From Massospora cicadina (Eukaryota; Entomophthoromycota; Entomophthoromycetes; Entomophthorales; Entomophthoraceae), in the NCBI GenBank assembly GCA_022478985.1, contig JAKSZP010008012.1, forward strand, positions 116,414-180,413: a stretch of 64,000 bases of DNA, in the 5' to 3' direction. Below the pieces are notes generated by a model. The model saw nothing but the letters and a program-made list of their open reading frames with translations. It was not told the DNA's origin and did not search any database. A program made the translations under genes and the position numbers. Below are positions 9,391 through 47,289 of this stretch, one piece after another. How positions within the stretch are numbered: the first letter of the stretch is position 1; every line of letters begins with the position of its first letter.

Positions 9391-9829
9391 AGATTAAAAA
9401 CTTTTTTAAAATTTGAATTTGATCAAATAAGTGATTGAAACAAAAGAGATTTAGCAAGAGGTATTTTCTTTATGGTTAAAAATACAATTAAAGTCCCACA
9501 TAAGTTGTACTCCAAAAAGCAGTCTATAGTTATTTTATCTAACACAGTAGCAGAAGTGGTAATTAAAAGTTTTCCAAATTGGAGGTAAAGCAGAAAACGC
9601 TCCCATTGCCTTAGTCAACTGATTACCTGCCATCCCATATCCAGCTTCATAAATAAAATCTGGAGCCATTTTTACTTTCTGGATAAGTTGTGAGGATAAT
9701 ATATTAGCTGGTTGACTGGTGATTTTTATAACCAGTACCTTAACCTTTTAAACAAACTCTACTTAAACCACAAAGAGCTCAATTGTGAATTAGCAGCTAA
9801 TAAACTCCTGTTAGTAAATTGTAGTTTTC

Positions 9830-9874
9830 TTTTTTAGTACTAGATGGTCCCAACCCAAGGGGGGATTCATCGAT
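9830..9874 (-). mobile_element. 45-bp micro-insertion ending TAGTACTAAAAAA
   Basis: On the minus strand the insert ends GGGACCATCTAGTACTAAAA plus a short A run. It is flanked by near-identical duplications gttagtaaattgtagttttc (9810-9829) and gtagtaatttgtagttttc (9875-9893). The same 3' end occurs at 19224, 21351 and 47200. The structure is that of an extremely 5'-truncated retroposon copy. Confidence 0.75.
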
Positions 9875-9899
9875 GTAGTAATTTGTAGTTTTCAAGCGG

Positions 9900-12800
9900 A
9901 GGATTTTGGCCATGACCAAACTCAGGGTTTTCAATGTGTTTGAAGGTTTTATTGGCTAACGCTTGTCTCTCCATAGAGGAGCTGACAAAGAATTTATTTG
10001 GGTAGTTTACCAAAATTAAAAATAAATAAAGCTGAAGGTCCTTATTTCTTAAAATATTAAGCGGTGATTTATTTTCTCATGAGCAGCTATCACAAAACAT
10101 CCCAAGATATTAAGCATAGAAATAGACCTAAAATGAGAAGATTGAGTCACTTAATTGTCTTCAGCATAGGGGGCCTCCTACCCTATACTGACTGATCTTT
10201 TGCCAACTTATTTTGATGAATACAAGAAAAGTTTATAGTGTGGTTGTTTTCTTACAATAAGTATAAAATAATTTCGGTGTAGGCAATTTGGGGCATAACC
10301 AATAAAACTTGATCCACGGCTTATTAAAAAAACGTGTTGCCCAGTGAGGTTAAATAGTTTGGTAGGAATCTCAAAGATGGCTTTCTTGATATGGAGGAGA
10401 GATGTAAGGTTGGATCTCATTTCTTTAAGATAGTTTAGTATCAGGCATATTATTAAATGCTGGAAATGAGGCAGTGATGATGTGAAATTTTAAGAATTGC
10501 TCGCTTGATTATTTAATTCCTGAATGCTTAATAGAGCTGAAGTTCAGCTGAAGGATCCCCAAATTTGCGAGTGGCTTACAGTATTTTGACCGTTCAGAGA
10601 CTCACTAGACATCTTCAAATAGCCCTGACTCTTCTGGCCGTTTTTGGGCTTGATTTTTATGCTGTAATTAGGAACTTCAACTGATGCAGGAAAAGATGCA
10701 AGCTGTGGATCTTGAATCCCAGCTTGCCGACACTCTCAAGAGCAACTTAGGATAAAAGCCAAGCGAAGATATAATAAAATAAATCTTTATTTTAGATTAG
10801 TTACTTGATAATTATTTATTAGGATAGGCGCCAGTATTTATACCTCTAGGGCATCTCCTGGCCACATTCAAGAATGCAATCTCACAGATTATTTTCCATT
10901 TCAGTTTGGCTCTTAAACTGATATGACTGAGACCTATTGTTAGGTTTATTTGTGGCAAAAAATTCTCATAAATGTGAGCTTTTCAGGGACAAAACTGCAA
11001 CAATGAGCGTGCAAAATGGTCCTAAGATCATCTCAAAAAGAGTTTAATCATAATGCTGACAAAATATAAATTCTGGGAGATTTTGTGGTTTTTTTAAATA
11101 ATGATGTACCCTTAATCAGGCTGTCAGCAGGCCTCTTAATAGCACTAGGTACTCCTACTTGGGAGGTCCATGTGAAAGTGCTATCGTGCTGGTTACGCAT
11201 ATCAACATATGAAAATTATTTTAGGACCAGCTCAAATATGTTTTCATCATACAGCTGATGAAAACAACTACCTGATGGGTTTTCAACTGGCCCTCTCAAT
11301 AGCACTAGGTACTTACATTTATGCAGTCCATAAGCAAGTGCTATTGCACTGATTAATTTCTTTTTATCCTTTTGTTTATGTGATTTGTAGATGTTATCTT
11401 TGGGTCGATCCTGAGCAATTTCTCATGCTGATTTCTTAATATTGGTCAAATTAGTCAGGACTAGTTACTGAGGGATTTAGTGTAGCTGTAATCAGCCCAA
11501 CTGTGTAAGTGTATTTGTCCTGAGCTTCCAATAGATTGATTGGATTGATTTGATGTTGAGTTGATAGGCCCATGATGAGTAGTTGCAGTGAAGATTGGCC
11601 TGAATGTGCAGGGGTATTTTGCCTGGGGTTAGGTATTATAATCAAATCCGCATTGTGATAATTGTCCTGTTCCATGTTATTGCAATAGGCTATAATTAGA
11701 GTATTAGCTCAAGCATTAGGAGGGAAAATTGGCCCAATCTGTAGTTTGTTAAAGGCTTCTTTTTAAGTCAATAAGAGAATCTGACAGATGACATCATCTA
11801 GTGTAAGATGATTCCACGCAACCAAAGTTTGAGCCTCAAGGTTAATTCAATGGGCGAAATTATTTATGGTTTTTCACCATTTGAGGTTTATTCCCATAAA
11901 AGTTTGTTTTTAATTTGATAAGATTAGTTTGCTTTTTAATTTCTAAAGCCAAAATTCTTGGATTCATTCTAAGTATGGCAATGAATTAGATGACTTATCA
12001 TAATTTCTTGAGCTATGCGGCTAAGACTGTTTTGTCAGGTGTTTGAGCCATAAATTGTTATGCCTTCTTCCATATCACGTTCATAACAATTATGATAGAG
12101 AGATGTTATCTTTCCTGGGTTTTACTTCTTGTTATATGGAGGTTTAAATGTGCTATATGGAGGGCTTATGGCCAAAAAAGTGAATTGACACCAGGTGCAC
12201 TCCTTTGCCTAGATAGGAAGCATTATTTCATAATCTTTCATTAAGATGAAGAGAATTTACTTGATTTCATAGTCATTGATTTCTTCAATTAGTGAATCTA
12301 CTAATCATAGGTGGCACAAAGAGCTGATCTCATGGCGATGAACTGGTTTAACTGACAAATTTCGCTGATTAAATTGGTAGTCTCACAAAGTTTGAGTAAA
12401 TGTTGCTCAGTGGTTAGCATTCTTTAGATCAAGCCTTGCAACACAGTGGGTAAAGTAGCCAAATTTTCAAGGAACTTTTGATGAGTTTTTAGAGAAACCT
12501 TAAGGAAAGAGAGGCACTTCAATCTATGTGATTAGCACTCCTTGAGCTATGAGTCCTAGTTGGAATCAAGATTTTGAATTTCCCAAATTAATGACTGGAG
12601 ACGCTCATTGGCTTCCTGGGGCAGCACTAGGTCCAAGAGGGCCAGGGGGTCCCAGTGGCCCAGGGGTTCAGGGGATCCATGTTGACCAGCTTGACCATTG
12701 CAACCAGGGGCTCTTGGCTTTCCCGGAATTTTAGAAGGGCTAGCATTGCCCGCCATCCCTAGCGGCCCTGAGCAACGGATATTCTCTTGAGAATTACATA

Positions 12801-13522
12801 CATTATAGAATAACTCTTAAAGAAAACGGAGGCATAAACCATAGAATTCATAAACTTACAATTTGAGTTTGTACCCTGATTATTTCGATCTACAATCTGA
12901 TTAACAATATCTTCTAGTTGACTAAACTGATTTAAGAGTTTTATTTGAATGAATCTCATAATTACCTCATCCAGACGTGTTAACATAATTGCATCTCATT
13001 GATAAGCTGTTAATTTATAATATGGCGATACGTTTTAACTGCCAAAGAGAGAGAAATATTGATAGAAATGGAGGAGTTATGAATGTAAAGCCCCAATAAC
13101 TGTAAATGCCAAAGTAGGGCCTGATGATAGGAACCCATTACTTATAGTAGAAGGTATAGGGTGGGATGTAAAAATTAATTTAAATAGTGTTCCAAAAATC
13201 CTGCTCTTGTCTGTTCTCCATCAATTGAGGTTTATCAGCTTACTCATCATAGGGGCTGGTACCAAGAGTGATTGTCTTCTATTATATAAGCCTTTGGGGA
13301 TGAATACCTACAAAAAGAGGAGCTGAAGAGCTTCAGCGAAGTCTGATAATTGTAATTTGTTATTGCTCCATGGAAAGAGTGATAAGGTCACCTCTAAGAA
13401 GTGGTAAAATAAAAGGTTGCAAGTTAGTGCCATCTCTCCTACATTATATTGATTGCCCAATTACTGAGATGGGAGACATCATGATCCATCGAGGTTTCCA
13501 AAACCAAAATTGTTAAAATCCA
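9900..13522 (-). pseudogene. gag: Element L gag with collagen-like segment
   Basis: The inferred start is the ATG at 13522 (MDFNNFGFGNLDG). The order is: N-terminal region aligning with M; a predicted coiled coil (LLNQFSQLEDIVNQIVDR, about 12945-12890); Gly-X-Y triplets (12780-12640); a second helix (ERLQSLIWEIQNLDS, about 12630-12580); then capsid-like sequence at about 12000-11450 (INLEAQTLVAWNHLTLDDVI). A further region near 10430-10200 (NLTSLLHIKKAIFEIPTKLF) aligns with M at about 17455-17530. Stops and frameshifts are frequent. No zinc knuckle or protease was located; the older LINE satellite occupies that place. Confidence 0.6.
12640..12780 (-). other. Collagen-like Gly-X-Y segment in L gag
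   Basis: The minus-strand frame reads GPLGMAGNASPSKIPGKP, then RAPGCNGQAGQHGSP. One frame shift later it reads GPLGPPGPLGPSAAPGSQ. That gives about 17 triplets with two or three lost glycines. Helical, coiled-coil-like sequence lies on both sides, which is the usual layout of a trimerising collagenous stalk. Confidence 0.75.
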
Positions 13523-14716
13523 TTGTAATATTAATTTCACTGGGAACTCAGGTTAAATCTGGCAGGGCTCACCATTGTTGGTATTTTTGCCCACATTACC
13601 CAGCTTCATGATTATGTTAAATATTCTTTTTAAATTGGGTATTGATTCCACAGGTGGATGTTGAATTTATCATTTTTCATAAGATAACTATTGTATAAAA
13701 TATTCCAACGAATACTTTTAATCCAACGGATTATAATCTGCCAGATTGATGAGTATTTCATTAGGGGTGATCCCCAACGATAAACAAGCAATTGGGGAGT
13801 CAATTCCAATACTAATAACTCAATTGACTTGCAGGAGTCAATCTGTTTTTGCTGCTGATTGACTAAGGGGTAGATGAATTGCTGTTGAGTACTGCCACCT
13901 GTTATAGAGCAACCTTTTTTGTTAACCTTTTTTTGGATTGCAATCTGCTGTTTAAGGGTATGAGTACCATTACCTAAGCAGGTATTTACCAAGTAAGGGT
14001 AATTCAAATAGAGTTGAGTGAAGACGTTGGGACACATTCTTTTCTTCAACTCAGAAGAGGTTGCGGCAAAGTAGGGGAGAGAAAACCATTAATTTGATGA
14101 AGAAGATCATAGTTCTGAGATACCCTGGAGGGTAAATTCATTGGCTTCAGCCACCAAACAATTAGTGTGCCAACCTAAGTGTTGTGCACCGAATTCCATA
14201 TAAGTTCCCAATAGTTCTTTTATCATAATGTAGATCTGATAGGAACAAACAATTACCAATAAGGTTTTATAACTTAGACTGTTAACTTTTGTAATTAGAA
14301 TTGAAAGAAGAAGCAGATCCTTTGTCTATATTATTGTTATACTCTGCAGACTTTGCATGATGAGAATGAAGAAGAGCCTATGAACCTTACCCTAGGTTAA
14401 TTTTTACCAGACGAGATAGGGAAGAAGTCCAAATCATTCCAGATGAAGTTAATATCAGGATAAGCATCAGGTTGGCATTGGACCTAATTACTATCTTAGC
14501 TATCAGCTCAACAAGAATAGTAGTTTTCATACTACTATTGCATATTCTAATATACAGTATCAACAAGTTGAGCAATGTACATACAAGGAAACTGAGCAGT
14601 TGAATAAGGGAGCTGAAGAGATATTTATTCAGAAAGAAGAATGAAATCCCAAACTTTATCAATTGTGCTCAATAAAAGCACAGGCTCCTTGAATTTAACA
14701 ACCAGTTTTGATAAGA
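13523..14716 (-). other. Long extra leader in L between 5' LTR and gag
   Basis: In M the gap between the LTR and the first gag codons is only about 50 bp; here it is about 1.2 kb. It contains a 139-codon open frame (14049-13630, starting MKKRMCPNVFTQLYLNYPYL) and a 91-codon frame (14662-14387, hydrophobic N-terminal half). I recognise neither, and chance open frames are possible. The block may be an unrecognised insertion. Confidence 0.4.
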
Positions 14717-18900: not shown

Positions 18901-19691
18901 AATTGACTAAATATGTATAACAATTTTTGAAAAAGATTTGATTACCAAAAAATTCATCATCATAATTTAAAAAAAAATTCAAAGAAAATATAAAAGTAAA
19001 TGAGGTGGGTTGAGACTCAAAGAAGATATAATTATCATGAAAAATAGCTTGAAGTATCAGGATATCTTGGGACAAAACACAAAAAGAGTTGTGGGAAGAT
19101 ACCACACTTGAGAATGACTACTGGCTTCTAAAATTTGTTTCCTGGGATTAGAAAACTCTCTACGAAGGTTTCTCCAAACTGGCCCATTAAAAAACAAGTT
19201 ATTTAAATTTAGCCTCTACCATAACCATCTAGTACTAAAAAAAAAAATGAAAAGATCAATCCTGTCAGAATGCTCAATACTTATTAAAATTTAATACTTT
19301 CTAATACTAACATTAATATTTATTTAGATGATCAAAAACGAAACTCATATCTAATTGTCATTTCCCACTCTACTGCTTCAGAAAAGAAAACTAAATGAAG
19401 ATTATTGGCTGTTTAGGCCCAAAAAGCCTAACGGCAAATTAACATTGGCCAACAAGCCTTAAAATTGCTAAGGAGTTAATCCTTTTGGGACAAGTCAAGT
19501 GTTAGTTTCTGAACTTGACAACATAATCCAACTTTGAGAGCCCAATGGGATCTCCAAATGCCACCATCACATTAAATTATCAAAAGTGCCAACCTAATTG
19601 CATGGAACCTATTTGTTAAAAGCTGGATTCTTCGCTGATTGTTTCCATAAGTTACTTGCACAGGTTTTTTATGAGCATGATTCGCGTTGCT
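18901..19691. other. No recognisable gene; one micro-insertion
   Basis: AT-rich sequence with no motif that I can place, apart from the micro-insertion at 19224-19247. It may be worn-out M sequence. Confidence 0.4.
19224..19247 (+). mobile_element. Micro-insertion ending TAGTACTA plus A-run
   Basis: ACCATCTAGTACTA followed by a run of eleven As in all, the same 3' end as at 9830, 21351 and 47200. No flanking duplication was recognised here. Confidence 0.5.
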
Positions 19692-21085: not shown

Positions 21086-22250
21086 AAATATATCTGTTTT
21101 TGTTATTATTTCTTCAAATAACTTTTTTGCTCATATCATACTTTGATTTTCTTGAAGAGTTTATTTTATAAAAATAGAAATTACTTGCACCAAAGTTAGA
21201 GTAAATCTGAGCTTAATTTTACTCAAGTGTATAATGTTGACAATTATAAAAAGTCTGACATCTTCCCTCTTGTCCAGCTCATATTTCAAATTCTAGATCT
21301 CAGTACTAATAATATCTTGACAATCTTTATTATGAAGATGCCCATCTCATACCATCTAGTACTAAAAAAAAGATGCCCATCTCATCCAACTAATAAATCG
21401 TTCTGCTCAGAGAAATCTCTTTTATGGTCTCCACAGACCCATATTCCTGTTAAGCGCATGTAGATAGTCCTTCCACTACATTTTGGAAAGGGTTAATAAT
21501 CCTGATAAAACCAGAATAGCGACCATCTCAAACAAATCATGGCTGATTCTCCCTTTTCCACCAGTTCCCAAATTGTACTTTGATACTCTGTTAGATTCAG
21601 ATCAGGTGCCATATTGGGAGTATTCAGGGTTAACTCCAACTGCCTCTTTCTTATCTGTTGCTTTCCTCCCCAACCTGAAATATAGCATTTGGCAAGTACT
21701 GACATCTCAATTTCTCTTCCCTTCATTATGTTCTCTCAGGTCTTAGCTTTTGCTCAATGAACTTGGCTTCAAATAGGTCTAGCCCTTTAAAGTGTTCAAT
21801 TTTAAATAGATTTTGACGGGTTATTTACCCCTACTATCAAACTTTTCCCTCCACAGTAGGTACATCGATAAAATTAACCCAAAATTGAGTATAACCAATA
21901 AAAGGTATATAAAATATATGACTATTTATGTTTTTTACTTCCTTATCCATATTTTATCAATTTTTTATTTTATTTTTCTTATTTTTATATAGACATGACC
22001 TTTACTCAGTTCAGCGGTCTATATTTTTAATTATTATCACCCAAACTGACTCCTAGATATACTATGACCTACCAGTTATTATCATTCAGAGGTCTTATTT
22101 TTAATACTTAATCAATTTTTACTTAGTTCAGCAGACCTTTTTTAGGAATTTCTTCAAAAAATTTTCAGGACATAACCATATCAATGGTTCTGCGATCCAT
22201 TGAAAACTCACGTTTTTTCCTTGGATCCACTACTTTAGGTACTTTCATGG
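21086..22250. other. No recognisable gene; contains a micro-insertion
   Basis: AT-rich. The short frames at 21483-21746 show only a weak PDLNLTEYQ string on the minus strand. The 3' LTR of element A would be expected here but I could not match it to 45748-46400. Confidence 0.4.
21351..21370 (+). mobile_element. 20-bp micro-insertion with perfect 15-bp target duplication
   Basis: The insert is ACCATCTAGTACTAAAAAAA, flanked by AGATGCCCATCTCAT at 21336-21350 and 21371-21385, identical on both sides. It ends in an A run like the copies at 9830, 19224 and 47200. Confidence 0.85.
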
Positions 22251-26733: not shown

Positions 26734-27117
26734 TTGAAATGTACATATTGTGACACATTCGTACAAAATACCAAAATCCAGGTGATCATCAATACAGGTG
26801 CTCCTGTCAATATAATATCCACCAAGATTATGGCTAAGCTTCCTCTGAAGCCAGATGTGGACCACCAAGTATTTTATGGGACTGTGGGGGCACAGAGTAC
26901 AGTGTCAGAAGGCGCATATAGCTCATTGCCTTTGAAGTTTGAGTCAGCCAGCGCATCTGCTCCAGCTTTGGAGTTGTCTAATGACTGCTATAACATGTTG
27001 ATTGGTGCTGCATTTATGCGGCGCTTTGGGGCTATAGTTAATATGGCAGATGAAACCATCAGTATCCTGGGACAACGGAACCCTAATCTATTCTACTTCC
27101 AGCGGAGTCCCAGATGA
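26734..27117 (+). pseudogene. Element E protease
   Basis: Retropepsin-like aspartic protease that would cut Gag-Pol. The frame is open for 127 codons. The active-site loop reads VIINTGAPVNIIS, so the catalytic Asp of DTG is Asn (codon AAT after a C, as expected from deamination of a CpG). A second hydrophobic motif is MLIGAAFMRRF. Despite the intact frame, the missing Asp means no activity. Confidence 0.75.
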
Positions 27118-27246
27118 CCCAATCCACTCTAGTCAAATTAATCTCTCCTAAAGCGATGATTTGATTCTTGTAAGATATCAGCAGATGAAGTGAAGGACTC
27201 AAACGCTTCCAAACCATATTTACATGACAAAGGGATTTTGGTATGA

Positions 27247-27525
27247 GCCACAAATGCTTTGACTATCCCATCTGGGCATCAAGTCATAATTGGGACAGAG
27301 CTCAAAATTGATATACCGGGAGGTATGTGCGGAGAGGTTTTGAGGCTCTATCAATAATCGCAGCTTGAACCTCATGTGGATCTTGGGTTACTGTTATCAG
27401 GGAAGGAGAAAGTGAAGGTGTTGGTAGCGAATCTGCAGAAGGAGGTGATGAAGGTTCAGCAGCACCAATTGGTGGTTTACCTGCGCCTGATCCCTCTTGA
27501 TAAGGTCCATCAGATACACAACTTT
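27247..27525 (+). pseudogene. Element E dUTPase domain
   Basis: Reads TIPSGHQVIIGTELKIDIPG, GMCGEVLRLYQ, a stop, then VDLGLLLSGKEKVKVLVAN and KVQQHQLVVYLRLIPLDKV. These match the order of the trimeric dUTPase motifs (IP..G strand, P-G turn, GE-V-VLL-N, final hydrophobic strand). The QHQ(L/I)V string recurs in the element I domain. It sits between protease and RT. One stop and shifts show it is dead. Confidence 0.7.
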
Positions 27526-27589
27526 AGCTCTTGGGAAGATCTTTGATTGCCTTTAAAAACCACCTTCAGCATAATGACTGTGGTTCCAT

Positions 27590-28526
27590 GGGAGGCGCTA
27601 ACTGGTCTATCAGAGAATCAGAAAGACAGGGTGATGGATCTGTTTAAGAAGTTTACAGCATTTTTGCAACTGATGATCATGACTTGGGTTGCACTCACGG
27701 GGTTGTGCATCAGGTGAACACGGGAGACCACCCCCTATCAGGTCATGACCTATCCATTGCTCAAAGGCAGTGGAAGAAATTGTATCTGCAGAAATAGATA
27801 CATTGGTGGAATAGGGAATTTTGGAGCCATCAAAAGAGTCCCTGGGCATCCCCCAGTGCTTTTGTCAAAAAAAGATGGCTCCAATTGAGTAGTAATTGAT
27901 TACTTGAAGCTTAACTGAATTAGAAAGATAATTTGTACCCACTTCCACAAATCAATGATGCTTTAGATAGTTTAGGCGAGGCCAAGTATTTCTCTGCTAT
28001 GGACTTGATATTGGGGTACTGGCAGATCAAGTTGCCAGCAGCGGAACAAGAAAAGTGCGCAATAATCACCTCAAAAGTTTTGTTCCAGCCTACACGTATG
28101 CCACAGGGTTTGTGCAATGCCCCCGCTACGTTCCAGCGGGCTATGGACAGTATTTTGGGTGACCTAAAGCTGTCTTGCGTTCTTGTCTACCTTGACAATA
28201 TCAACGTATTTTTGTGGACGTTCATAGAGCATAATGGACATCTAGAGCAAGTGTTCCGCCGCCTTGCTGATGCTAATATCAAGATTAAGCCCCAAAAGTG
28301 CCACTTTTTCAAGGAACAGTTGGAATACCTCGGCTTTGTGGTAGACTCCAAAGGGCTTAGTCCTCATCTGGCCAAGGTGGTTGCCATCTGCAAGATGATT
28401 CAGCCAAGTAATAAGCGGGATATCCAAGTGTTCTTGGAGATGGTCATTTACTACTGGCAGTTCATTCCTAACATTAGCTATATTGGGGCTCCACTATTTG
28501 AGCTATCAAGAAAAATGTTGCCTTAA
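27590..28526 (+). pseudogene. Element E reverse transcriptase
   Basis: The lead-in reads DLFKKFTAFFA, then DDHDLGCTHGVVHQVNTGD across a shift. The main frame 27933-28526 holds YPLPQINDALDSLGEAKYFS, AMDL with the first catalytic Asp, PQGLCNAPATFQRAMDSI, the palm motif VYLDNINVF and the thumb LEYLGFVVDSKGLSP. The usual YLDD is YLDN, a loss of one catalytic Asp. The 197-codon open frame is one of the longest in the window. Confidence 0.85.
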
Positions 28527-30766: not shown

Positions 30767-31045
30767 CTAAGTATAGAGATCAGGGTCTCATTTTCTCGTT
30801 CAACAGCAATAAAAAGGGATGAGTTATAGGTGGCTGATAAGAGTTGTATTGCTTCCATGGAGATGGCGAGGAGTTTTACCACACAGAAGTAGAATTTTCC
30901 CATTATCTCAAAGGAGGACATGAGGGAAACCATGTCGCGCAAAGATATATTGATGTAGGAAGGTGGCAGTGGCCTTAGAAGTCTGAGCGAGGAGAGACAC
31001 AGCTTCTACCCATTTAATGAAATGTTATATTACAGCCATGATATA
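30767..31045 (-). pseudogene. Element B integrase, second part
   Basis: Minus-strand continuation of the B integrase beyond the mariner: HFIKWVEAVSLLAQTSKATA near 31020-30960, then KLLAISMEAIQLLSATYNSS and VERENETLISIL near 30900-30790 (the YNP..NG.VER.N region with the catalytic Glu). A stop replaces the second residue of the expected DHF. The frame runs up to the 3' edge of element E, and the C-terminal domain is missing. Confidence 0.8.
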
Positions 31046-31063
31046 CACAGTGCATTCAAAAAG

Positions 31064-31079
31064 TTCTGGAACTAACGTT
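31064..31079. repeat. Target duplication of the LINE, 3' side
   Basis: TTCTGGAACTAACGTT, matching TTCTGGGACTAACGTT at 36384-36399 with one mismatch. Both lie inside the mariner terminal repeat. Confidence 0.8.
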
Positions 31080-31119
31080 ATTTTTTAATTTATTGTGGGG
31101 AAGGCTGACTATGGGACAG

Positions 31120-34100
31120 ACACTTCTGAATATGACTCAGAAGAGACAAAACTTAGTACCAGGGAAGGCACCCTAGAGAAGCGATGCTATCTATTGTTGC
31201 CAGCGGGAACTCCACTTGTGGGGAGGGGGAGGGAACGTGTGGAGGGGCCGTAGCCACAATGGAACACGTGTGGAGAAAGGGGTCTGATTTGATGAACTAG
31301 ACTTGGAACCAGGAGGAGACCAGCTGTTGGCGACGCGGTGGGAGGTATCCAAACATCCACGCTTGAAAGTGGTCCACCAGATGAGACCGGAATCTGTGGA
31401 CAGCTTCTGGGAGGGTGGGGGTGGAGCCTGCGATGGCATCTAAGACAATCGTGTGGATGGTCCACATGGCGATTGCAACCACCAGAGCATGGAGGGAGGG
31501 TGGAAGGGATGAGGCCATTGATAGAGCAAACATATCTCTTGATAGACTGAAGGGATGCGTTTGATCCTGGCCCAGCAGACGTTGAACTTCGCGCCATATC
31601 ACTTTAGAGGTAGGGCACTTCTCCAGGCGGTAGAACAGCGTTCCATACTGGCCACACACGACAAAGGATGAGTGTAAAGCGTTAGAGCGCTCAGCTGTAC
31701 GATACACCCGCCTCAGGCAGTGCCACACATGGGAGCGGATTTGAGGCTGCAACAGGGGATGGTGAGCGTATTTCCAGATAGTTTTTTGGGTCTCAATGGA
31801 GTAAGGGATGTCCATCATGTCCAGGTAGTCCACTCTGGATAGGACATGGGGCCGAATGGGGATCACGCCATCATGGATGGGTAGCCCCTGTACCTTTTGT
31901 GTGAACTGAGGAGAGGGGCGGCCTCTTCAGGTTGTATGTCCGCTAATGCAAATTCTCCACTCAGCGCTCCACATGGAGAGTAGGATTCATTTGTAGTGGG
32001 TTTTAGTCCTGTGAGGAACTATGGTCGATGGGTGTGATGCGAGGTATTTCATCAGGGAGTGGGGGTTCGATGGATTGTTGAGGCCCAAGGCGCGGGAGAA
32101 GTTGGAGCGGGCTGCGCGGGACCAGTGTTGGGAGGGGAGTGTAGGGGCGGTGACGGCCACAATCCAGGTGCCCAGGATCTTGGCAGCATGGGCTTTGAAG
32201 TCAAGCAGGCCCATGCCAACATGATGATGAGGGCCAAACATGACCTCTAGCCATACTGGTGGAGGGCGGCCTGACCAAAGCCATCCTTGCAGCAAGGCAT
32301 ACAAGGATTTGAAGAAGCTTGGGGAGAAGGGGATGGCGTGGGCTCTGAACCAGACTTTGGAGAGGAGCATAGAGTTGGCTAAAACAACCCTGCCACTAAG
32401 GGAAGTAGGGTGGGCTCTGAGAGAGGCGATTCGCTTTGTCACGTTGTGCAGAATACGGCACTCCATTACTGCTGATGCGTATCCTCCTGCCTCCATCCAC
32501 ACGCCCAGATGGCGTACCGGTCCTATGATAGGGAGTGGCACAAAGGGGAGCATCAGTGGGGCGGTGTGTGTTGAGCTGGTAGGGTGAGGACGTGGGCGAG
32601 CAGATGGGCCAGGTTGGGAACTAATTGCTGGGGCCCAGCAGTTCTGAAACCGACCAAGGAGGATGATTTCGGTTTTGGAAGCGTTCAGTGCCGCGTTACT
32701 TACCCGGGAATACTCCTGAATGAGAGCTTCAAGCGCGCGTGCATCTTGATTATTAGACACCCCAACCACGCAATCATCTGCGAATGCCATTATCTTGACT
32801 GGGGCTTGGCCTGGCACATGGACCCCATTAAGTTAGGCATTCACATTTTGTAGTAGTGGGTCAAGGCTGAAGTTGTATAAGAGTGGGCTGAGGGGGTCCC
32901 CTTGTCACAAGCCCCTTTGAGGGCGGACTAATTCTGTTAGGAAGCCAGGGCCACGTACTGCCATTGTTGCAGATTCTGTGAGCAGCATCACCCAGTTGAT
33001 GAAGCGAGGGGGTAAGCGGAATTATTTGAGGCAGGCCCTGAGGTATTCCCAGTCTACTCTATCATAGGCCTTCTGTTGGTCTAAGAATACAAGTGCCCCA
33101 GAGGCTGTGGACTGACATGCATTAGCCACAGAGTGCACGTTGTCCCAAATCGACCTTCTGGGTATGAAACCGAATTGTTCTGGAGAGATGGTGGCAGATG
33201 CTACAGTCCCTAAACGGTTAGCCATGATTTTTGTTAAAATTTTAGTGTCTGTGTTTGTTAAAGAAATGGGGCGTCAGTTGGCTAAGTTAAGCTTATCCCC
33301 TTTCTTCTAGAGTGTGACAGTAAAGGCCTCATGTCCTCCTGGTAGGAGGCGCGTTTCCACCAGGCTTTGGTTAAGTGAGGCGAGCAGCAATGGGGATATA
33401 TATTTGAAATACTTTATGTAAAATTCTTATGGAATGCCATCTGGGCCTGGGCATTTTCAGTTTGGTGCACCGCGAATGGCTGTCCATAATTCGTTTGGAG
33501 TAATCAAATTTATTATTTCTGGGTATTGGAAAATGGTGCAGATGTGGGCTCATTCGAGAAATTCCACCAATTTGGCTAGCTGAATTGGAATGGATTGGTA
33601 CAACTTGGAGCAATACTTTTGTGTTTTGATTGCCACTTTGGCTGGTGTATTCACAATGGAATCATCCGATCTTTGCACCTGTGTGCAGGCCACGCTCTGT
33701 CATGGTGCAAAATTTTTTTAAAGAAATGTGCGGTGCACTTGTTGCCTTTTGTGATGCGTTTGGCCCTGTAATGAACACAAACCCAATGTTTGTGTTGCCT
33801 TTTGAGTGCGTTGAGGTGGGCGGCTGCCTCCGCCCACTTCCAGCCCCATGCAGAGCTGTATCCTGTAGCTGGGATATTAGACTCCAGGTGTGCCAACTCT
33901 GCCAGCGCGTGCAAAATGACCGCTGATGTGGCTCATGAGCGTCTGGAGGAGTGATGGCGAGAGTGGCAGATGGTGTCATCTTTGAAAGTTGCCCATGTGG
34001 AAATGGGGTCTGCACAAAAAGGTGCAACAAACTCTTTTGCCAAAGTTGCCGCTTCCACCCACGTGGAAAATCCTGGCAACGTGAGCTCGGAGGGGCGGAT

Positions 34101-34843
34101 TTTGCACCAATGTGGGGCCTTAGCAGCTGTGACAGGTAGGTGGTAGGTTAATGAGACCAGTCGATGGTTGGAGAATTCCATTATGTTGTTTTGAAGTGGG
34201 AGATGTGGGGTTGTAATTTCGCCAGCATTAAGATAAAGTTGATGTGGGTCATGGACCTTAATTGACCATTGTGGACATGGGGACGCATCATGTTTTTGAG
34301 CAGTGGGGCATATCATAGCAGTGCATCCATTAAACCTAGGGTGGCCTTTAGAACGCGCAGTTCTACGTGACCCTGGGGGGCGTACGGTGAGGAAGGCCAC
34401 CAGTTTGTTGGTGTGTTTAGCCAACAGTTCATGTCGCCAACTATGAAAGGGTCTGGGGGTAGCGGGAGGGATTTGACTGATGAGAAAAATTCCTGATGCT
34501 CACGTGCACCATTTGGGGCATAGATGTTGACGATTAAGTGCGCTACGTTGGCCCACGAGAAAGTGACAATGAGAACTTGGCCATTAAGGAATGTTTCTGA
34601 CAACAAAAATTTGAAAAAATTATTTTTCCAAATTAGTACCCCACAGTGCTTTGACCAAAAGGATAGGGATGGGAGGAGCATTGTTTTCCAAGCTTCCTTG
34701 GAACCTCATGGACAGTGGGACTCCTGGATGGCCAGGATATCCATGGGTAAATTGTGTTTTAAAAAACTCAGTTTTCTAGCACAGGACGGGGAAGCCTTGA
34801 GTCCGGCAATATTCAATGTCCCTAAAGTGAAGGTTTCCCCCAT
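31120..34843 (-). pseudogene. LINE ORF2: endonuclease, reverse transcriptase, zinc finger
   Basis: Makes the target nick and copies the RNA onto it. Start ATG at 34843. The APE-type endonuclease shows TLNIAGLKAS, AIQESHCP, IVNIYAPNG, VGDMNCWLN, and SNHRLVSLTY where SDH is expected. RT shows EQFGFIPRRS, FLDQQKAYDRVDWEYL, a stop inside the GLRQGDPLSP motif (32905-32907), and an intact FADD near 32775. The C-terminal region has HVWHCLRRVYRTAERS and CGQYGTLFYRLEKCP, a CCHC-like finger. The frame 32817-31987 is open for 276 codons. Two stops are TGA where CGA is expected. Confidence 0.9.
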
Positions 34844-34849
34844 CGCACC

Positions 34850-36261
34850 TTAGGTGCAAGGGGGTGGGCACCTGGGCCCACCAGCCTCCTCTAGATCCCC
34901 ACAGGCCTTCACAGCAGTGTGGATGTTAGCAGCAACGCTATCGGGATTTTTGTTAATTTTTGTGGAAAGAGTTGCATTGGCTTTAGCCTTCACTTTTTGT
35001 TTTTCTGATGTCAGACAAATTTTTTGCGGTGCAGATGAGTTTGGTGCACCGTTGAGCAGGGTGAAAAAAATTTCAGTTAGGATGGGTCCCAAGTCAGTTT
35101 TGACTGGAGCTTGGGTGCAACAATTGGGTGAGATTGAATCCCCCAATGAATCCTCAGATTGATTGGCCCACTCGGCATGGGCTTCCCAATCTGATTGGTT
35201 GATGGATTCCTGAGTTGCTTCCGCCACAAAGGTTTCAATGTCCTCCTGGCATTGTGAGTGTGGGATAGCAGTGGTGGCTTTGGCTGCTTCCTTGGCCGCG
35301 GCCTGTGGGCCTGATTGGCCTTCTTCCACTCTTGCGGGGAGATAGGCTTTACCAGTAGGTAGCAGCCTTGTGCTCCCCACGGGAAAGCCTCTTTGGTGCT
35401 TGCAGTTGGTTTGTAGTGCGCCTCTCCACTGGCCATGGCCGCCGAGGGGTGCTCTTGGAATGTGACGCCCTCCTTGGTGGGACATGCGTGTGCCTTATGG
35501 CTGAATGCATCACAGTGGGTGCAAATGAGGGGCGCGCTGTCCACGGTCACCTGGAACGGGTGGGTGGTATGCCCTGCGATATCAATAAAAGTGGAGTGCG
35601 GGATCTGGGTTAGGTCCTTCATGATCTCCTTGGTTGGGGTCAGGACTGTAATGGCTTTGCCAGTACACAGGTGTGGCATCAGCGTGAAGCGTTACATTTC
35701 AAAAGATTGGATTTTGCCATATACTATGAGACCATCTTTCAGGTGTTGTTCCAAAATGTCACGTTTTACCGTAGTTGGAAAAAAGTCAAACGTGAGAAAA
35801 ATTTGGTTTGATTTTGTCCATCTGGTGCATTTGGTTTCAACAACCCATTGCCCTTTGGGGAGGTTAACCACTACATGCACCACAGCAGCCTTATCAGCTG
35901 CCTCTTTGATTTCAAAACCTAGGTCCAGCCAACCGTGTGACATGGAGTGAGGTGTGACATACACCACAGTCAGGAAAATTGTGTGCCCATCTTCACAAAA
36001 TTTTTCCCATAAGGCCATTTGTTGGATGTCCAGAAACACGTGGACTCCAAATTCCACCAACAAAAGTGGCTGGGAGTGTGGCGTGTTGATGTACTGGTTG
36101 CATCGTGCTTGCTATGTGAGTATTTCTGGGGAAATAGTGACCGCCGGTTCTTTAAAAATTTTGTCTATTCTGCCAGTTTCTCCAGGGCGTTTTCTAACAT
36201 TGGAGGCCGCGGGCCTTCCATCTGCTCCTCTTACCTTACTTGCCCAACTGCTCCCTGACAT
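34850..36261 (-). pseudogene. LINE ORF1 with CCHC zinc knuckle
   Basis: RNA-binding ORF1 protein. Start ATG at 36261 (MSGSSWASKVRGADGRPAAS). In the middle, VVVNLPKGQWVVETKCTRW and FLTFDFFPTTVKRD suggest an RRM-like fold, then comes the knuckle CTHCDAFSHKAHAC (CX2CX4HX4C) near 35525-35480, then a lysine- and proline-rich C terminus ending PRCPPPCT. In-frame stops lie near 36115 and 35690, and there is a shift near 35480. The TAA at 34852-34850 is followed six bases later by the ORF2 ATG in the same frame. Confidence 0.85.
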
Positions 36262-36383
36262 GGGCGCAGACTAATCTCCTCTGTGAGATTATCAAGCTAG
36301 ATATAGTATTGAATTGAAAAGGTTGCAAAAGTGATTGCAACGAGAAAGAAAAGTTCAGTTTGGGAGAATAATAAAAAGATAGA

Positions 36384-36399: not shown

Positions 36400-36921
36400 T
36401 TAAAGACGCAACTTTACAAGTAAATAAACTTTCTTTTATCATAATCTAACATACAACCTTTCCCTCTCTATACATATTTATATTGCTAAAACTATTGTTA
36501 AAAGTTATGCACATAGCTCCTATTTTGTATAACCATGTTTAAACCAGCTGTCACATTCTTCTGAATTGTCTCTACTTTATCAAAAGGATGAACCTTCAGT
36601 GCCACCTTCAGATTAGAGAACAGAAAGAAGTCAGACAGAGCCAAATCTGGTGAATAGGGTGGATAATTAAAATCTGAAGGTGGCACTGAAGGTTCATCCT
36701 TTTGATAAAGTAGAGACAATTCAGAAGAATGTGACAGCTGGTTTAAACATGGTTATACAAAATAGGAACTATGTGCATACCTTAAAACAATTTTTTTAGA
36801 TTTATAAAAATAATAGAGAGGGAAAGGTTATACGTTTAAATTATGGTAAAAGAAAGTTTATTGATTTGTAAAGTTGTGTCTTAAAAACTTTAGTCCCAGA
36901 ACTTTTTGAATGAACTGTGTA

Positions 36922-37320
36922 TTGATTGCCCCCAGTAATCTGAGGAAAAGAACCTACCACATACAAACTTATGGTGTGGAAGGGTTGTTGGGGCGTTGCA
37001 GGTTGGTACTGATAACGTGTCTTAAAGCTATCTTGTTTTATTTTCAGGTCAAACAAGCATCCAGGACTTCAGCTATGGTCTCTATGATGCCCTCCCAGTG
37101 ATACTGCTCTTTAACCCAATCATAGATTTTTCAGACTTTGCCATGGCCCATGATAGTGTGAGACTCCATGATTATAGGTATTTGCTCGGATGCTGGAGAT
37201 AAGGCCACCATTTTACTTCTACTTCTTATATAACTTCCCGCTCTTCACCTTGATGTTGTGGGAGTGCCGTTCAAACAACTTTTGTACTGGCTTATTTTCA
37301 TCAACCCATACGTCTGGAGT
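36922..37320 (-). pseudogene. Element B integrase, first part
   Basis: HHCC-type region (HTIMGHGKV then IYDWVKEQYHWEGIIETIAE, near 37170-37080) and the start of the core (PFHTISLYVVGSFPQITGGN, 36985-36930), where SLD of the catalytic motif is SLY. It stops at the TA next to the mariner and resumes at 31043 with the strand that normally follows. Confidence 0.8.
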
Positions 37321-41130: not shown

Positions 41131-41206
41131 ATCTAGCTGGAGTATAATAAAGCTAGCCTGGGGTTTATTTCCATTGTATTATTTGTTTTTTTGTGGTGTA
41201 CAGGTT

Positions 41207-41224
41207 CCCCTGTAGTGAACACCA
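41207..41224 (-). other. Primer binding site of element B
   Basis: Minus strand TGGTGTTCACTACAGGGG, two bases inside the 5' LTR. It differs from the E site at one position over the first 16 bases. Confidence 0.7.
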
Positions 41225-41226
41225 CT

Positions 41227-41888: not shown

Positions 41889-41893
41889 GTTGA

Positions 41894-43010
41894 TAATAAA
41901 TCACAGATATTCCAACTCTTTTTTTGAAAATGGCACTTACTCAGCTTGATTTTTAGATTAGCTGCAGTCAGTCTCTTGATTTCTTCCAAGTTCTGCAAAT
42001 GGTCAATAAATGTCCTACTGAACAAATTTATCTCATCCACTTACACCAGGATGCATGATAACTTCAGGCTACTTGATATGGCGTCCATGGCCCTCTGGAA
42101 TGTCGCAGGCACATTACAAAGACCTTGGGCCATCATAGTCAGATGATATAGCCCCTGCATAATAACGATCACGCATTTCTCTTGGTCCTGCTTTGGCAAA
42201 TCTATTTGCCAAAATATGGATATCAGATCCATTGTAGAAAAATACTTCTCTTCTCTCAATTGATCTAACGCATCATTGATGCGTGGTAATGGATAAAAAG
42301 TTTTTTTCATTACCTTATTCAGCTTCCAATAATCTATCACCACCTGATTAGAGCCATTCTTCTTCTCCACAATCAGGTTAAGACTCTCCCAGGGACTCAA
42401 CAATGGAACTAGAATCTCATGCCTCACTAGTTTGCTGTACTCTTCTTACACTACCGCTTTGGCAAACTTTGGCCATCAAATTGGTCTCATTCTAATTAGC
42501 AATTTTTCCTGGTGTTGACTTTGTGGATGACATTAATTGCTTATCTCAAATCATGGTCATCCTGGGAGAATATTTCCCAATACTTTTTGAATATTTTTAT
42601 CATTACCTCCTACTGTCTTTCTGTCATATCAGAGAGTTGCTCTCAATCAACTGATAAGTTGATACTCTTAGCCACCCCTACCAGTAATCCCATCTCATTG
42701 AGTGGTCCCATAATCATAAATTTCCTCAAAATCGCCTTTGAGATCAGATGAACAAACATGATGATCTTATTCTTCTTGATTTTCATCAGTTTTCACACAA
42801 AGTCGCCAAGAGAACTCAAATTTCATCATGACCCAGCATAATTATTCCTGGAGCCACCCAAGGCTCTACTTTGGACTTCTTTCAGAGGCTTCCAACTTCT
42901 CTATACAACAGCTTGGGTATCTCTAATATCAATCTCATGTCAACTAGGATCTGCAATCCCATCAGTATGATCCTCAAATTCTTGATTCCCAATGAAGTTC
43001 CCAATTTTCC
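41894..43010 (-). pseudogene. Element A dUTPase and RT, first part
   Basis: dUTPase-like segment at 42990-42760: LVDMRLILEIPKLLYREV, PGIIMLGHDEI, a stop, VLLATL, then IKKNKIIMFVHLI. The RT lead-in reads KYWEIFSQDDHDL and AINVIHKVNT. RT 42427-42041 is open for 128 codons (VVIDYWKLNKVMKKTFYPLP, YFSTMDLISIFWQIDLP, GLCNVPATFQRAMDAI). The YLDD position reads stop-V-D-E. The frame goes to FIINS at 41894 and continues at 24109. Confidence 0.75.
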
Positions 43011-43775
43011 AGGATTTCCGTTAGCATGTCTCTTAATTGAAATGCAATCCAATACTCTTATTTGATTGTTTTACATATTAATTTCAAACAATCTATCAAC
43101 TAGTGTCTCATCTAAACACCTCGCTCCTCAAAACTATTTTAAGTGGACCCAATTTCAACATAAGTTGGCCCAACTGAAAATCTTACATCTTAAGTAAATA
43201 TTTGGTGGAACATGTTCTCTTTCAGCGCTAAAAAGTTTTATATCTAGGCTGTAACTCCTTTTGACAAATCTTGAGTATCTTTTTCAGTGTCATTCACCAT
43301 ATAGGGGTCACATTTGCATCTATGAATTTACAAACTCATTGACTTGCTTCATTAAATGCTCTATGTCTGTGCTGAATAAAAGCAATTGAACATGATCCGC
43401 TTCATGTTCAGTTTCTAAGAATAAATTTCTTTAACTAGATCGCCTTATTTCTTATTTAATGACGTTATTTTCCCTAGCAACTCATTACTGAAATTAGAGA
43501 CGTCCTTGACTACTTCCTCAATCTTGGCAACTCTCTCCTCCAAAGAAGCAGATTCTCTGTGACTGCTTGAATTTAAGTTGTTCTTGTTGACTGTTGTCAA
43601 CTACATCCAGAGTTTTCTTAACTCGTTCTTGTATGAAATCTTATAATGGTGTATCCTACTTAACTACCCCCTTTGGTGAGCATTAATTATCAAGATAGAG
43701 GACTTTCAATGATCAGTAAAGACATATAGTTCCCCAAAAGCTAGCTTCACAGGTTCAATATATGCACATTTCACG
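43011..43775 (-). pseudogene. Element A gag or gag-pol linker, worn
   Basis: Minus-strand pieces such as QERVKKTLDVVDNSQQEQLK near 43640-43580 look helical, like the E gag N terminus. No protease motif was found. Read as part of A from its position between the dUTPase and the gag region. Confidence 0.35.
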
Positions 43776-43780
43776 CTTTC

Positions 43781-44780
43781 TGATAGTAGTTGATAATTTA
43801 TTGATAATAGTATGAAATCTAATATCTGTAGTTGATTAAATAACCCATTATAGTACAATAATAGACCTGTACTTCTCCTATGAATTACTCTTGATGTCAA
43901 CTATAGGGACTTCTTCCCTTAACCCCTAAGTTGATTTACGCTCAGATCCAGAAGGTTACAGCCTTTCCTCTTGTGAAATGTAGTCTGCAGCAATTCACGT
44001 CTAAGTTTATTTCTCTTTAAAGGATCCTCAATTCTTACTATTTATCCAACAAAAGATTCCCCAATTATTGCACTCAGCAATAATTTCTTTGCAGATGGAT
44101 AGAACTTATCACAATAATGAATTCCAACTTTTATTTTTTATTAACGTGAATTATCAGGGAATTTTATAGAGAAATATGGCGTCCAACCCTTGTTTGGCGC
44201 CTCAGCCATGAAACGGCAGCTGTTATCATTGAACTTCCCTTTGACATCTCACCAGTGGTGCTCTTCTCCATCTGGTTAGGATTCCTTCGTCAAAAATCCT
44301 CAAGACCAAAAATGGACAGATTCAGAAAGCATGTCCCTATCGTTTCCTACTTAATCCCAGAAACAACCATATTTGGCGAGCAACCCACTTAGATAATAGT
44401 ACTTGTTACCCGTTATAACAGGTCGCTAACCAACTGATCAATTCACTAGTTAAAAGTGACATCACTCGCCTTGCAACTGCTCATTAAATTTTCTAATTGG
44501 TCATTGATGAAACCTAACTGATCCCAAGTGATACACCTAATAGTTAATCAATGAACAACTATCAGATGACCCATTTTTTGGCAATTCCGCCTGATAAGAT
44601 TAATAATTTACCCAGATCAATCCCTGATGGATCCAAACCTGGCGAAATACCCAAGATTCCCAAACATTACTAACCCAAAATTGGGTTCAACCTATATCCA
44701 ATTCACTTGACATTGGGAATTATACCCTAGCGATCCATAGATAATCAAGGAGGCTGAAAAGGTGGGTAAAACTCCCAACA
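43781..44780. repeat. Solo-LTR-like repeat, copy 3 of 3
   Basis: 1,000 bp from TGATAGTAGTTGATAATT to ACTCCCAACA, aligning with 23-1050 and 19692-20689. It lies inside the gag part of element A, so it is probably a later insertion. No 5-bp target duplication was recognised. Confidence 0.6.
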
Positions 44781-44784
44781 TTAC

Positions 44785-45640
44785 CTGAGCTTCTTTCTCA
44801 CATCTGCTAACCTGTAGGTGCTAAATATTTGGTATTCTCAAGAGAAGCTTTATAGGTTACTCCTTGCCCAGTTGAGCAACCTTGAACTCTTAAGCGGGGG
44901 TACCCTATAAGGTTCTGCACCAGACGCCGCTTAAGTTCTTCAACATGGGACAAGACTTAAAACAGTTTCTGCTCCACCATAGCTACGCGTTAATAATCCC
45001 CAGGTTAAGGATTGGTGCATCCAGCAAGAGTTTTCTGTGAGTCTGCTCTTCATGCTTTACAAGTTTCTTGGCATAATGATTAAGTAGAGATTGGGTGCAA
45101 GCAGCAGACAAGTTTAGTTTATTGCGGAAAAAACTTCATAGCCTCTTCTACATACTTCACTACACCAGTATACATGGTGGTGAGCCACCATGAAACTAAA
45201 TGATCTATGTGCGGTTTGACTCCACACCAGATTGCGCTTTTCAGTATGCTCAGAGGTCAGATTGCATAAATTATCATAGGCTAATATTAAAGCATCATGG
45301 TTTGTCAGGTGATGGTGCAACTCCTCTGATGAACACCTAAAAGGTGTATCATGTAGAACTTAGCAGGATGGGCAATATTGCAAACATAAGTAGTTAGGTT
45401 AATAGGCTGATTATAGGTATCTGGAAGGATTTGAGTCTCATAGAGGTACATTAGACAATCCTCTACAGAAGAACCTCTTTCATGGGAAGAAATGTTTCTG
45501 GGGTTAAACACGCCATGAGTTAAGTCCCTTACTACAACAGCTGCAGGCCAGGTAAGGCGGCGGGCCTCAAGTATAATTATTCTTTCAAACTGTTCTTTTT
45601 CAAAAGATATGGTTGGGGCTATCCATAAGGTCATCCTCTA
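44785..45640 (-). pseudogene. gag: Element A gag, N-terminal part
   Basis: Two minus-strand frames, 45634-45305 (EKEQFERIIILEARRLTWPA) and 45320-45114 (YDNLCNLTSEHTEKRNLVWS), lie directly behind the PBS, where gag belongs. Similarity to other Gag proteins is weak, so the call rests on position. Confidence 0.45.
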
Positions 45641-45727
45641 CCTTATCTCCGTTTCTCACCCAACAGTGACACTTCCAGCAGGAACGCCCTCCATTTTGAC
45701 TATATTTAACTTGTGGTGTACAAGGAG

Positions 45728-45744
45728 CCCCTTAGTGAGCACCA
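45728..45744 (-). other. Primer binding site of element A
   Basis: Minus strand TGGTGCTCACTAAGGGG, close to the E and B sites and placed just inside an LTR-like end (TGTGTGAATC at 45748). Confidence 0.65.
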
Positions 45745-45747
45745 CTT

Positions 45748-46400
45748 TGTGTGAATCTTGTTAGCTAATGCTCGCAAGTGCTGATATGCAGCAGGGTTTC
45801 CCCAACTGGATTGGTTTAATTAATTTTTTCAACTAATTTGGCGGATTTCCACTATGTAAAACTAATAGTAAATTATAGTTTTTCCCAAGTCGCGGCTCAA
45901 AGTGATAAATTAAACTTTATTACTATGCTTTCCCCTAGTATTTATGGTCTACAAAGGCTAATAGTGAGGTAATTATTGAATTTAATTTAGTCTGGGTGGC
46001 ACGGCTTAGAAAGTTTGATGATCCGGGTAATTCACACTCAGGAAAGTCATTTTACTTCATATGATAATGACATATTATTATTGGTCCATAGTAGGTAGGA
46101 TAAAACAATGGGGAAGTTTTTATATATCATACCCAATCATTTGCATCAGATTTAAGCTCTTATTGGCTGATCTCCATATGCTTCACTCATGATTGGGGGT
46201 AAAATTTATTCACCCTTTGCAACCCACTTCAAACCTATAAAGGAAGGTGTTTATGCTAAAGACAAACACACAGAATTAGTGCTAGGGCTTGGGCTAGCCT
46301 CAAACTCAGGTGGGGGATTCCTCCGAGGTTGTGAAGCGACAAGGGAAGCCTGATCTGCCCAGGTTGATGAAAGGCTAGAAGTAAAAAAATACTATGAGTC
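45748..46400 (-). repeat. 5' LTR of element A (right edge uncertain)
   Basis: Shares layout and scattered blocks with the B LTR: GGCACGGCTTAGAAAG against GATGGCTTAGTAACATC, and ACCTATAAAGG against CCCTATAAAAGG. The edge at about 46400 is estimated from B LTR length. No matching 3' LTR was found. Confidence 0.45.
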
Positions 46401-47184
46401 AAATCCTTTTGCTGAGAGTTAGGCTGCTTTGTATTTAATAAATTCAAACTATTCTCATCCAAAACATTTAATCTCACAAATTTGAGATGGCAATTGTCTA
46501 AAAGGCGGTTAATCCATGTTGATTAATTGTAAGCATAAACATATAATGTTTTTTATGTCAGTGCGGGGCAATAAAATGAGAAGTAAAATATATTATAAGT
46601 GATATGAAAACCAAGGCGCAGGGAAAGGCAATCATGATATTAGAGGATTGAGTTGCAACAGGGGGATTATAGATTTGGAATCCTGTTTTTATAGAATAAT
46701 CTGATGAAGTGATTATGGTTTCTAACTGTTATTTTATTCAATTTCAGCAACCTCCTATAAAAACGTGGGTCTTGTGAGGAAGTATCTTAAGTAAACCCTT
46801 TATCTGAGTAATTGCTACATATAAAATCACCTAATTATATATGATTTTTGGTTAAACCAATTATGACACTCATCTGAGTATTCTACATGTCATGATATCC
46901 TAAATGACCCTTTAGGAATGGTTTTAATTCTCATAGATCAGGTAGATCCTGCTATCAACTCCTATCACATATTGCTTGTCCATCAAGCGTAAGAAAAGCG
47001 TCGCAAGGATCCAGTTTATAAGGAACTCTCATATGTGCGAACCTTATCCAGACCTATAAGCACTTGATTCTATTCCTCTATAATTTTCTGGGGCAGCGGC
47101 TATGCTCACTCATTTCATCAACAGATAATCCATGGTGATAAGAGCTCTAAGACTAAGAAATAGATTTCTAACCTTCGTTCCATC
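46401..47184. other. No recognisable gene
   Basis: AT-rich sequence between element A and relic K. Nothing matched elsewhere in the window. Confidence 0.4.
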
Positions 47185-47199
47185 AATATATTGAACAAA

Positions 47200-47229
47200 C
47201 TTGGGTTGGGACCATCTAGTACTAAAAAA
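47200..47229 (+). mobile_element. 30-bp micro-insertion with 15-bp target duplication
   Basis: The insert runs from CTTGGGTTGGGACC through ATCTAGTACTA to a short A run, flanked by AATATATTGAACAAA at 47185-47199 and 47230-47244, identical. It has the same 3' end as 9830, 19224 and 21351, and agrees with 9830 further upstream (CTTGGGTTGGG). Confidence 0.85.
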
Positions 47230-47289
47230 AATATATTGAACAAAATTTACGTTTATTTCTATATTCCTTATTTATATTTTGGTAGGACA

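Follow-up and report, generated by a model that had tools for sequence, protein, structure and literature searches.

'Stringent' LINEs such as UnaL2 have structured 3' ends, and mouse L1 and other LINEs carry tandem monomers at their 5' ends. The cause of LINE truncation is a long-standing question, for which processivity, template breakage and host repair are the candidates. Among human and chimpanzee L1 insertions, 16.2% are full length and more than half are 5'-truncated (PMC2912911). The LINE of Massospora cicadina described in the present study resembles L1-clade (APE-type) LINEs, such as human LINE-1, in its PF03372, RVT_1 and C-terminal zf-RVT domains, its A-tail, its target duplications of mostly 15–18 bp and its 5' truncation, but it differs from human and chimpanzee L1 in that truncation is almost wholly restricted to the first ~45 nt, with few intermediates. 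As in the stringent LINEs, a short stem-loop is predicted at the very 3' end, but in Massospora it sits where copying seems to abort. The 376-bp tandem 5' monomers, which vary in number between copies, recall the layout of mouse L1. No earlier description of this pattern was found in the open-licence literature, which was examined in part, and its absence from print is not claimed.

Four short inserts in the window

The window, a stretch of 64,000 nt of Massospora cicadina DNA, contains four exact copies of the terminal 14-mer of the LINE, ACCATCTAGTACTA, at positions 9835–9848 (minus strand), 19224–19237, 21351–21364 and 47211–47224 (all plus strand). When up to two mismatches were allowed, five matches were found against 0.45 expected, and none of 100 shuffles gave five. 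The features at these sites are as follows.

9812–9829, minus strand: site 1, target duplication on the A-tail side, 18 bp, one mismatch to its partner
9830–9875, minus strand: site 1, micro-insertion of 46 bp, LINE 3' end from CATCGATG to TACTA plus A-tail (the '42-nt class')
9876–9893, minus strand: site 1, other copy of the target duplication, 18 bp, one mismatch to its partner
19224–19247, plus strand: site 2, 14-mer of the LINE 3' terminus followed by an A-tail, without a recognisable target duplication
21335–21350, plus strand: site 3, left target duplication, 16 bp, perfect
21351–21369, plus strand: site 3, micro-insertion of 19 bp, 14 nt of LINE plus As
21370–21385, plus strand: site 3, right target duplication, 16 bp, perfect
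47185–47199, plus strand: site 4, left target duplication, 15 bp, perfect
47200–47229, plus strand: site 4, micro-insertion of 30 bp, about 25 nt of LINE plus As
47230–47244, plus strand: site 4, right target duplication, 15 bp, perfect

A preliminary description of this DNA had reported one 3' end at four sites, three of them with flanking duplications, two perfect, and both points hold: the exact 14-mer is present at all four, and target duplications of 15–18 bp flank three, those of sites 3 and 4 being perfect. At site 2 a convincing flanking repeat was sought and none was found. The upstream sequence said to be shared by the longest insert and the 30-bp one proved to be CTTGGGTTGGG, which precedes the 14-mer at both sites 1 and 4. 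The same description had proposed a genome-wide search for the motif, and in the 1.47-Gb Massospora cicadina assembly the exact 14-mer occurs 31,225 times. Since the reversed control occurs only 16 times, a chance origin is excluded, as the low number expected in the window also indicates.

The parent LINE and its micro-insertions

The longer parent element that had been predicted from the shared 3' end was identified as a LINE of 6.1–6.45 kb, with an endonuclease, a reverse transcriptase, a zf-RVT domain and the 5' monomers. Four full-length copies were read, with target duplications of 13–17 bp and A-tails, and a self-comparison of the element revealed the 5' monomers as its only repeats and no LTRs. 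The endonuclease domain (PF03372, 3.1e-10) lies in L031:5170-6084, and the RVT_1 domain scores 8.8e-34. In the four full-length copies ORF2 is broken across several frames, but since the assembly was built from Nanopore reads (PMC9584336) these frameshifts may be errors. Compared with solved structures, the reverse transcriptase matched four human L1 ORF2p sequences and one chain named only 'RNA-directed DNA polymerase' (1.6e-37 to 8.6e-37), with R2 proteins scoring from 2.4e-28; judged by these sequence scores, from which the clade placement is taken, the element appears to be L1-like, with human L1 ORF2p the nearest among the named solved structures. The window's own LINE (~31.0–36.2 kb, minus strand) was considered as the parent and rejected because its 3' end is different. 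A BLAST search of the parent against the window returned, besides the micro-copies, only two short matches of 80–83%, both within that resident LINE.

The micro-insertions sampled are 3'-end copies of this one L1-like LINE family, inserted with target duplications, in agreement with their first interpretation as extremely 5'-truncated retroposon copies. They end in the 3' end of the LINE followed by As and, far from the motif occurring mostly without duplications, strong duplications, mostly of 15–18 bp, flank 70 of the 76 micro sites read individually, compared with 7 of 675 control A-tracts. The insertions show a target preference for AAGAA. For several of them paralogous empty sites are present in the same assembly, the best being 97.5% identical (L045 versus L044), and one such site lies within a LINE monomer (L060). 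Loop variants are common to micro and long copies: TTGGG was found in 15 micro and 5 long copies, TCGGG in 2 and 1, and TCAGG in 3 and 2, respectively.

In being short, A-tailed, flanked by target duplications and present in very high copy number, the micro-copies resemble SINEs and other short retroposons, but they consist of the LINE 3' terminus without a body of their own. A separate SINE was rejected on this ground, as the insert bodies, a few extra junction bases aside, match the 3'-terminal stretch of the LINE. A related proposal, that a self-contained SINE-like or MITE-like element of ~45 bp has only its 3' end in common with the LINE, is very improbable: it would account for the discreteness of the 42-nt class, but inserts with other body lengths (5, 13–29 and 37–39 nt) are nested in the 3' end of the LINE and have the same variants as the LINE. 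In addition, 45 nt would be too small for a tRNA-type internal promoter, and the sites in the window gave no tRNA or Rfam match.

A scan for A-tailed, repeat-flanked inserts was made over 361 kb that, the window excepted, had been chosen for containing the 14-mer. It recovered 74 inserts of this LINE family and 54 others, where a shuffled control gave 4. Among the 54 is a 5-nt insert, TACTA, of the same family; the rest, inspected by eye, look mainly like SINEs and repeats of tandem or satellite type, and no second family of micro-insertions was noticed by eye in these 361 kb. In a test for shorter bodies, two of 44 other sites with TACTA plus AAA passed, including one within a tandem-like repeat, against none of 317 for eight control words.

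Distribution of copy lengths

Moving inwards from the 3' end, 14-mers of the LINE were counted genome-wide at about 29–42 nt (6,837; control 28), at 58–71 nt (3,025; control 0) and at about 1 kb (2,797; control 4), along with 4,602 sites of the 5' monomer (control 4). The number of monomer-bearing elements is estimated at 2,800, scaled from 59 elements per 97 listed sites, and a monomer was present at the right distance upstream in 50 of the 57 listed 1-kb sites (contigs C1–C88). Individual reading of 84 copies gave 76 micro-insertions, all chosen for ending in the exact terminal 14-mer, and 8 long copies; in the 72 micro-insertions with a measurable boundary the LINE body is 13–44 nt, most commonly 13–25 nt. 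Copy length is sharply two-state, either micro (up to ~46 nt) or nearly full length. Because the counts stay level between 58 nt and the 5' monomers and seven of the eight long copies reach ~5 kb or more, truncation is largely confined to the first ~45 nt and seldom occurs later. The size range is wider than the 20–45 bp given initially, as the 5-nt body and the prevalence of bodies of 13–25 nt demonstrate.

The same data bear on the 'very poor processivity' first ascribed to the element, which the long copies and the flat counts do not support. A constant fall-off rate would yield mostly very short copies, as 76 of the 84 sampled are, but it is already at odds with the survival curve. When hazards were fitted to the 72 bounded micro-insertions and 8 long copies, a two-phase model, with 0.063 per nt up to 46 nt and 2.4e-5 beyond (a ratio of ~2,600), improved on the constant hazard by a log-likelihood of 257, so that plain low processivity is scarcely credible.

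A possible abortive start of copying

The best reading of the copy lengths, and one we consider probable though with some reserve, is that target-primed reverse transcription usually aborts soon after its start and, where it does not, goes on processively. The LINE endonuclease would nick the strand opposite AAGAA, and a primer with a TTCTT end would anneal to the LINE RNA at its short A-tail, where reverse transcription would begin. In about nine of ten starts synthesis would halt within the RNA 3' end, mainly on entering the 3' strand of the predicted terminal hairpin, leaving bodies of 13–25 nt, and otherwise at one sharp point ~42–44 nt in, at A-CATCGATG. The aborted cDNA would still become attached to the target, second-strand synthesis would follow, and a target duplication would result, whereas starts that pass ~45 nt would turn processive and usually get to the 5' end. 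Such a course would be akin to the abortive initiation and promoter escape of RNA polymerases, with target-primed reverse transcription having an 'escape' step of its own. That the abortive phase is intrinsic, the enzyme having to break free of its 3' RNA anchor in the first ~45 nt, failing nine times in ten and having its failures sealed as scars with full target duplications, is suggested more tentatively. The same scars would be left if the templates had already been reduced to 3' fragments or if a host factor intervened.

The 3' strand of the predicted terminal hairpin coincides with the stops at 13–21 nt, and in five folds the hairpin showed no extra stability over shuffled sequence (z −0.41 to 0.32). 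In a longer fold this strand pairs elsewhere, and the 42–44-nt end falls in an unpaired A-rich stretch, so that the sharp stop there is unexplained by the fold. The predicted hairpin thus suits the shorter stops and not the sharp one.

Discrete 5' ends without an explanatory fold, above all A-CATCGATG and its variants, at which 20 of the 76 micro sites start, could also arise if a faithful enzyme were mostly given short 3' fragments of LINE RNA with preferred 5' ends, produced by host RNases or RNAi or left as a stretch protected by a bound protein. The scarcity, judged by eye, of extra bases at A-CATCGATG-type junctions (present in L065 and L024) would agree with this. However, the first mode is spread across 13–25 nt and sits in a base-paired region of the predicted fold, and 10 of 70 junctions have unmatched bases of 1 nt, with some microhomology as well, so truncated templates seem unlikely, if still deserving of some weight. 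Microhomology of at least 1 nt, found at 18 of 45 templated junctions where a permutation null gives 24%, is what might be seen if a host repair or defence activity removed or displaced the nascent complex in the first ~45 nt and repair then sealed the short cDNA. Since target duplications flank even the shortest inserts, completion needs no long cDNA, which would also suit such an interruption; but a near-identical stop at 42–44 nt at many unrelated targets is not obviously expected from it, and we regard it as distinctly improbable.

In this one LINE an early zone of failure, the first ~45 nt, stands apart from a subsequent phase of high processivity. The genome holds some 27,000–28,000 micro-insertions with 5' ends readable to within a base or two and, if the reading of an abortive start is true, each would be the record of an abortive event, together amounting to a natural footprint assay of how LINE copying starts, by which early target-primed reverse transcription would become accessible to statistics and in vitro tests. 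Evidently, very large numbers of insertions this short can arise and be sealed with target duplications; such inserts would escape ordinary repeat annotation, and in other genomes they could pass as random indels.

Micro-insertions in the window and across the genome

The terminal 14-mer of an L1-like LINE, ACCATCTAGTACTA, has four exact copies in the window, and bears out the preliminary description, which had placed very short, A-tailed retroposon copies at four sites:

9830–9875, minus strand, micro-insertion
19224–19247, plus strand, micro-insertion
21351–21369, plus strand, micro-insertion
47200–47229, plus strand, micro-insertion

When up to two mismatches are allowed there are five occurrences versus 0.45 expected. 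Two of the inserts are bordered by perfect repeats, of 16 and 15 bp, a third has 18-bp repeats with one mismatch on both sides, and at site 19224 no target duplication could be recognised by script or by eye.

The phenomenon is real and much bigger than the window alone reveals. In the assembly (1,469,884,898 bases, 16,968 contigs) the exact 14-mer is present in 31,225 copies (15,535 + 15,690), the reversed pattern, as a control, giving 9 + 7. The sample studied comprised 80 of the first 100 listed 14-mer places and the four window sites, 84 distinct sites altogether, of which 76 are micro-insertions and eight run on into a longer element. Target duplications (finder score of at least 10) were detected by script at 70 of the 76 micro-insertions and, with the same finder, at 7 of 675 other A-tracts used as a control; on visual reading, five of the script-negative loci (L026, L030, L037, L044 and L052) have duplications that are imperfect, shifted or short. 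Most duplications (51/70) are 15–18 bp long, and their 12 mismatches per 1,110 duplicated bases point to recent insertion, notwithstanding the bias of the finder towards good matches. The motif AAGAA is preferred at the empty site, so the nicked strand would end in TTCTT. A-runs are short, with six As at 38 of the 76 micro sites, the lengths of homopolymers (A-tails, C-runs) and any frameshifts being uncertain because the assembly, almost certainly that of M. cicadina MCPNR19, is described as Nanopore-based with Illumina polishing (PMC9584336). Six additional As were seen at the 5' junction of the micro-insertion in locus L045, near 8886 (minus strand).

Several insertions have paralogous empty sites. 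The clearest two are L045, which matches the empty site in L044 at 97.5% across 320 bp, and L060 (C4:508930-509430), where a micro-insertion sits within a 5' monomer belonging to a long copy of this LINE; the rest are for the most part 66–78% matches to old repeats.

The parent LINE and other elements of the window

Four long copies could be read end to end; they measure 6.1–6.45 kb, are 91–99% identical across aligned LINE pieces, carry tandem monomers of 376 bp towards the 5' end, and have duplications of 13–17 bp. Another three long copies agree with the parent at two points, about 2 kb and about 5 kb upstream; in all, seven of the eight thus extend to some 5 kb or beyond, and the eighth, L006, is a long-class copy of 0.5 kb. 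The LINE encodes endonuclease, RVT_1 and zf-RVT domains, and its ORF1 is without a Pfam match. Among named solved structures, its reverse transcriptase is closest to L1 ORF2p, and none of the 120 listed of 609 protein relatives (7,991 candidates scored) exceeds 40% identity. Loci L034 and L014 hold a full-length LINE with a normal 3' end that lacks about 116 bp of 3' UTR directly upstream of GGCGTAATTC. A LINE expansion later than a Ty3 burst has been reported for M. cicadina (PMC10515909).

Other elements were also recognised in the window:

62052–62368, minus strand, full-length, tRNA-derived-looking SINE; its insert of 285 bp lies between perfect target duplications of 16 bp and ends in GGTTAAATAAA
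about 31050–36300, minus strand, second LINE, degraded, with its own 3' end ACAATAAATTAAAAAA
36384–36901, large inverted-repeat element, arms of 141 nt (93%) and of 66 nt (89%)
27933–28526, plus strand, reverse-transcriptase ORF (RVT_1), resembling a Ty3-type element

Elements similar to the SINE are found in L017, L035 and L044. The second LINE is bordered by 40-bp pieces of another repeat (31043–31082 and 36883–36922), and the two database matches of its retroelement protein (70% and 82%) are Massospora cicadina proteins.

A two-state distribution of copy length

Body lengths, measured from duplication boundaries, were obtained for 72 micro-insertions, four micro sites being without a script boundary. 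Fifty bodies are 13–29 nt long and 22 are 37–44 nt, with none above 44 nt among those measured, and among the copies sampled none had a measured length from 45 to about 500 nt. Twenty of the 76 micro sites start with ACATCGATG or a variant of it. The shortest copy seen, in L037 (at 562), consists of TACTA and As alone, flanked by perfect repeats of 16 bp, so the 14-mer count misses shorter copies.

Exact 14-mers along the LINE, counted genome-wide, number 31,225 at the 3' end, 6,837 at about 29–42 nt, 3,025 at 58–71 nt and 2,797 at about 1 kb. The monomer 14-mer has 4,602 sites, an estimated 2,800 elements at the ratio of 59 elements per 97 listed monomer sites in contigs C1–C88. In these contigs 57 of the 1-kb sites were listed, and for 50 of them a monomer lies on the correct side at the correct distance. 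A 1-kb 14-mer or monomer lies at a fitting distance (either strand) from 46 of 53 listed 71-nt sites, and the seven without a partner, L006 among them, may be truncated or mutated. Only six of the eight long copies carry the 71-nt 14-mer, so the long share of all copies is maybe about 13% rather than 9.7%, with 8 of 84 in the sample; the count at about 42 nt likewise misses variants. A two-phase hazard of 0.063 per nt up to 46 nt, a break point picked from the data, and 2.4e-5 thereafter beats a constant hazard by 257 log units.

Junctions and possible origin

The micro-insertions originate from the LINE, with target duplications and a two-state distribution of lengths. On the preferred reading, copying probably aborts early in target-primed reverse transcription. 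The 3' strand of a predicted terminal hairpin (GAUG...CAUC with CCC/GGG) coincides with the first length mode; its predicted stability is ordinary, in a longer-context fold this strand is predicted to pair instead with an upstream pyrimidine tract, and folding gives no explanation for the sharp stop at 42–44 nt. Interruption of copying by the host is an improbable source of the short copies. Microhomology of at least 1 nt occurs at 18 of 45 templated junctions versus 24% in a permutation null, and a further 25 of the 70 sites have unmatched 5' bases (a single base in 10); several others count as unmatched only through LINE variants absent from the comparison list. That the short copies were made from templates already truncated is unlikely, if somewhat less so than host interruption. 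Loop variants TTGGG, TCGGG and TCAGG are common to micro and long copies, so more than one source element probably makes micro-insertions.

As a kind, 5'-truncated LINE copies are already known. Human and chimpanzee L1 insertions, by comparison, are described as mostly 5'-truncated, with 16.2% full length (PMC2912911). Within a limited literature search, the near-absence of intermediates and the dominance of an ultra-short class are unusual.
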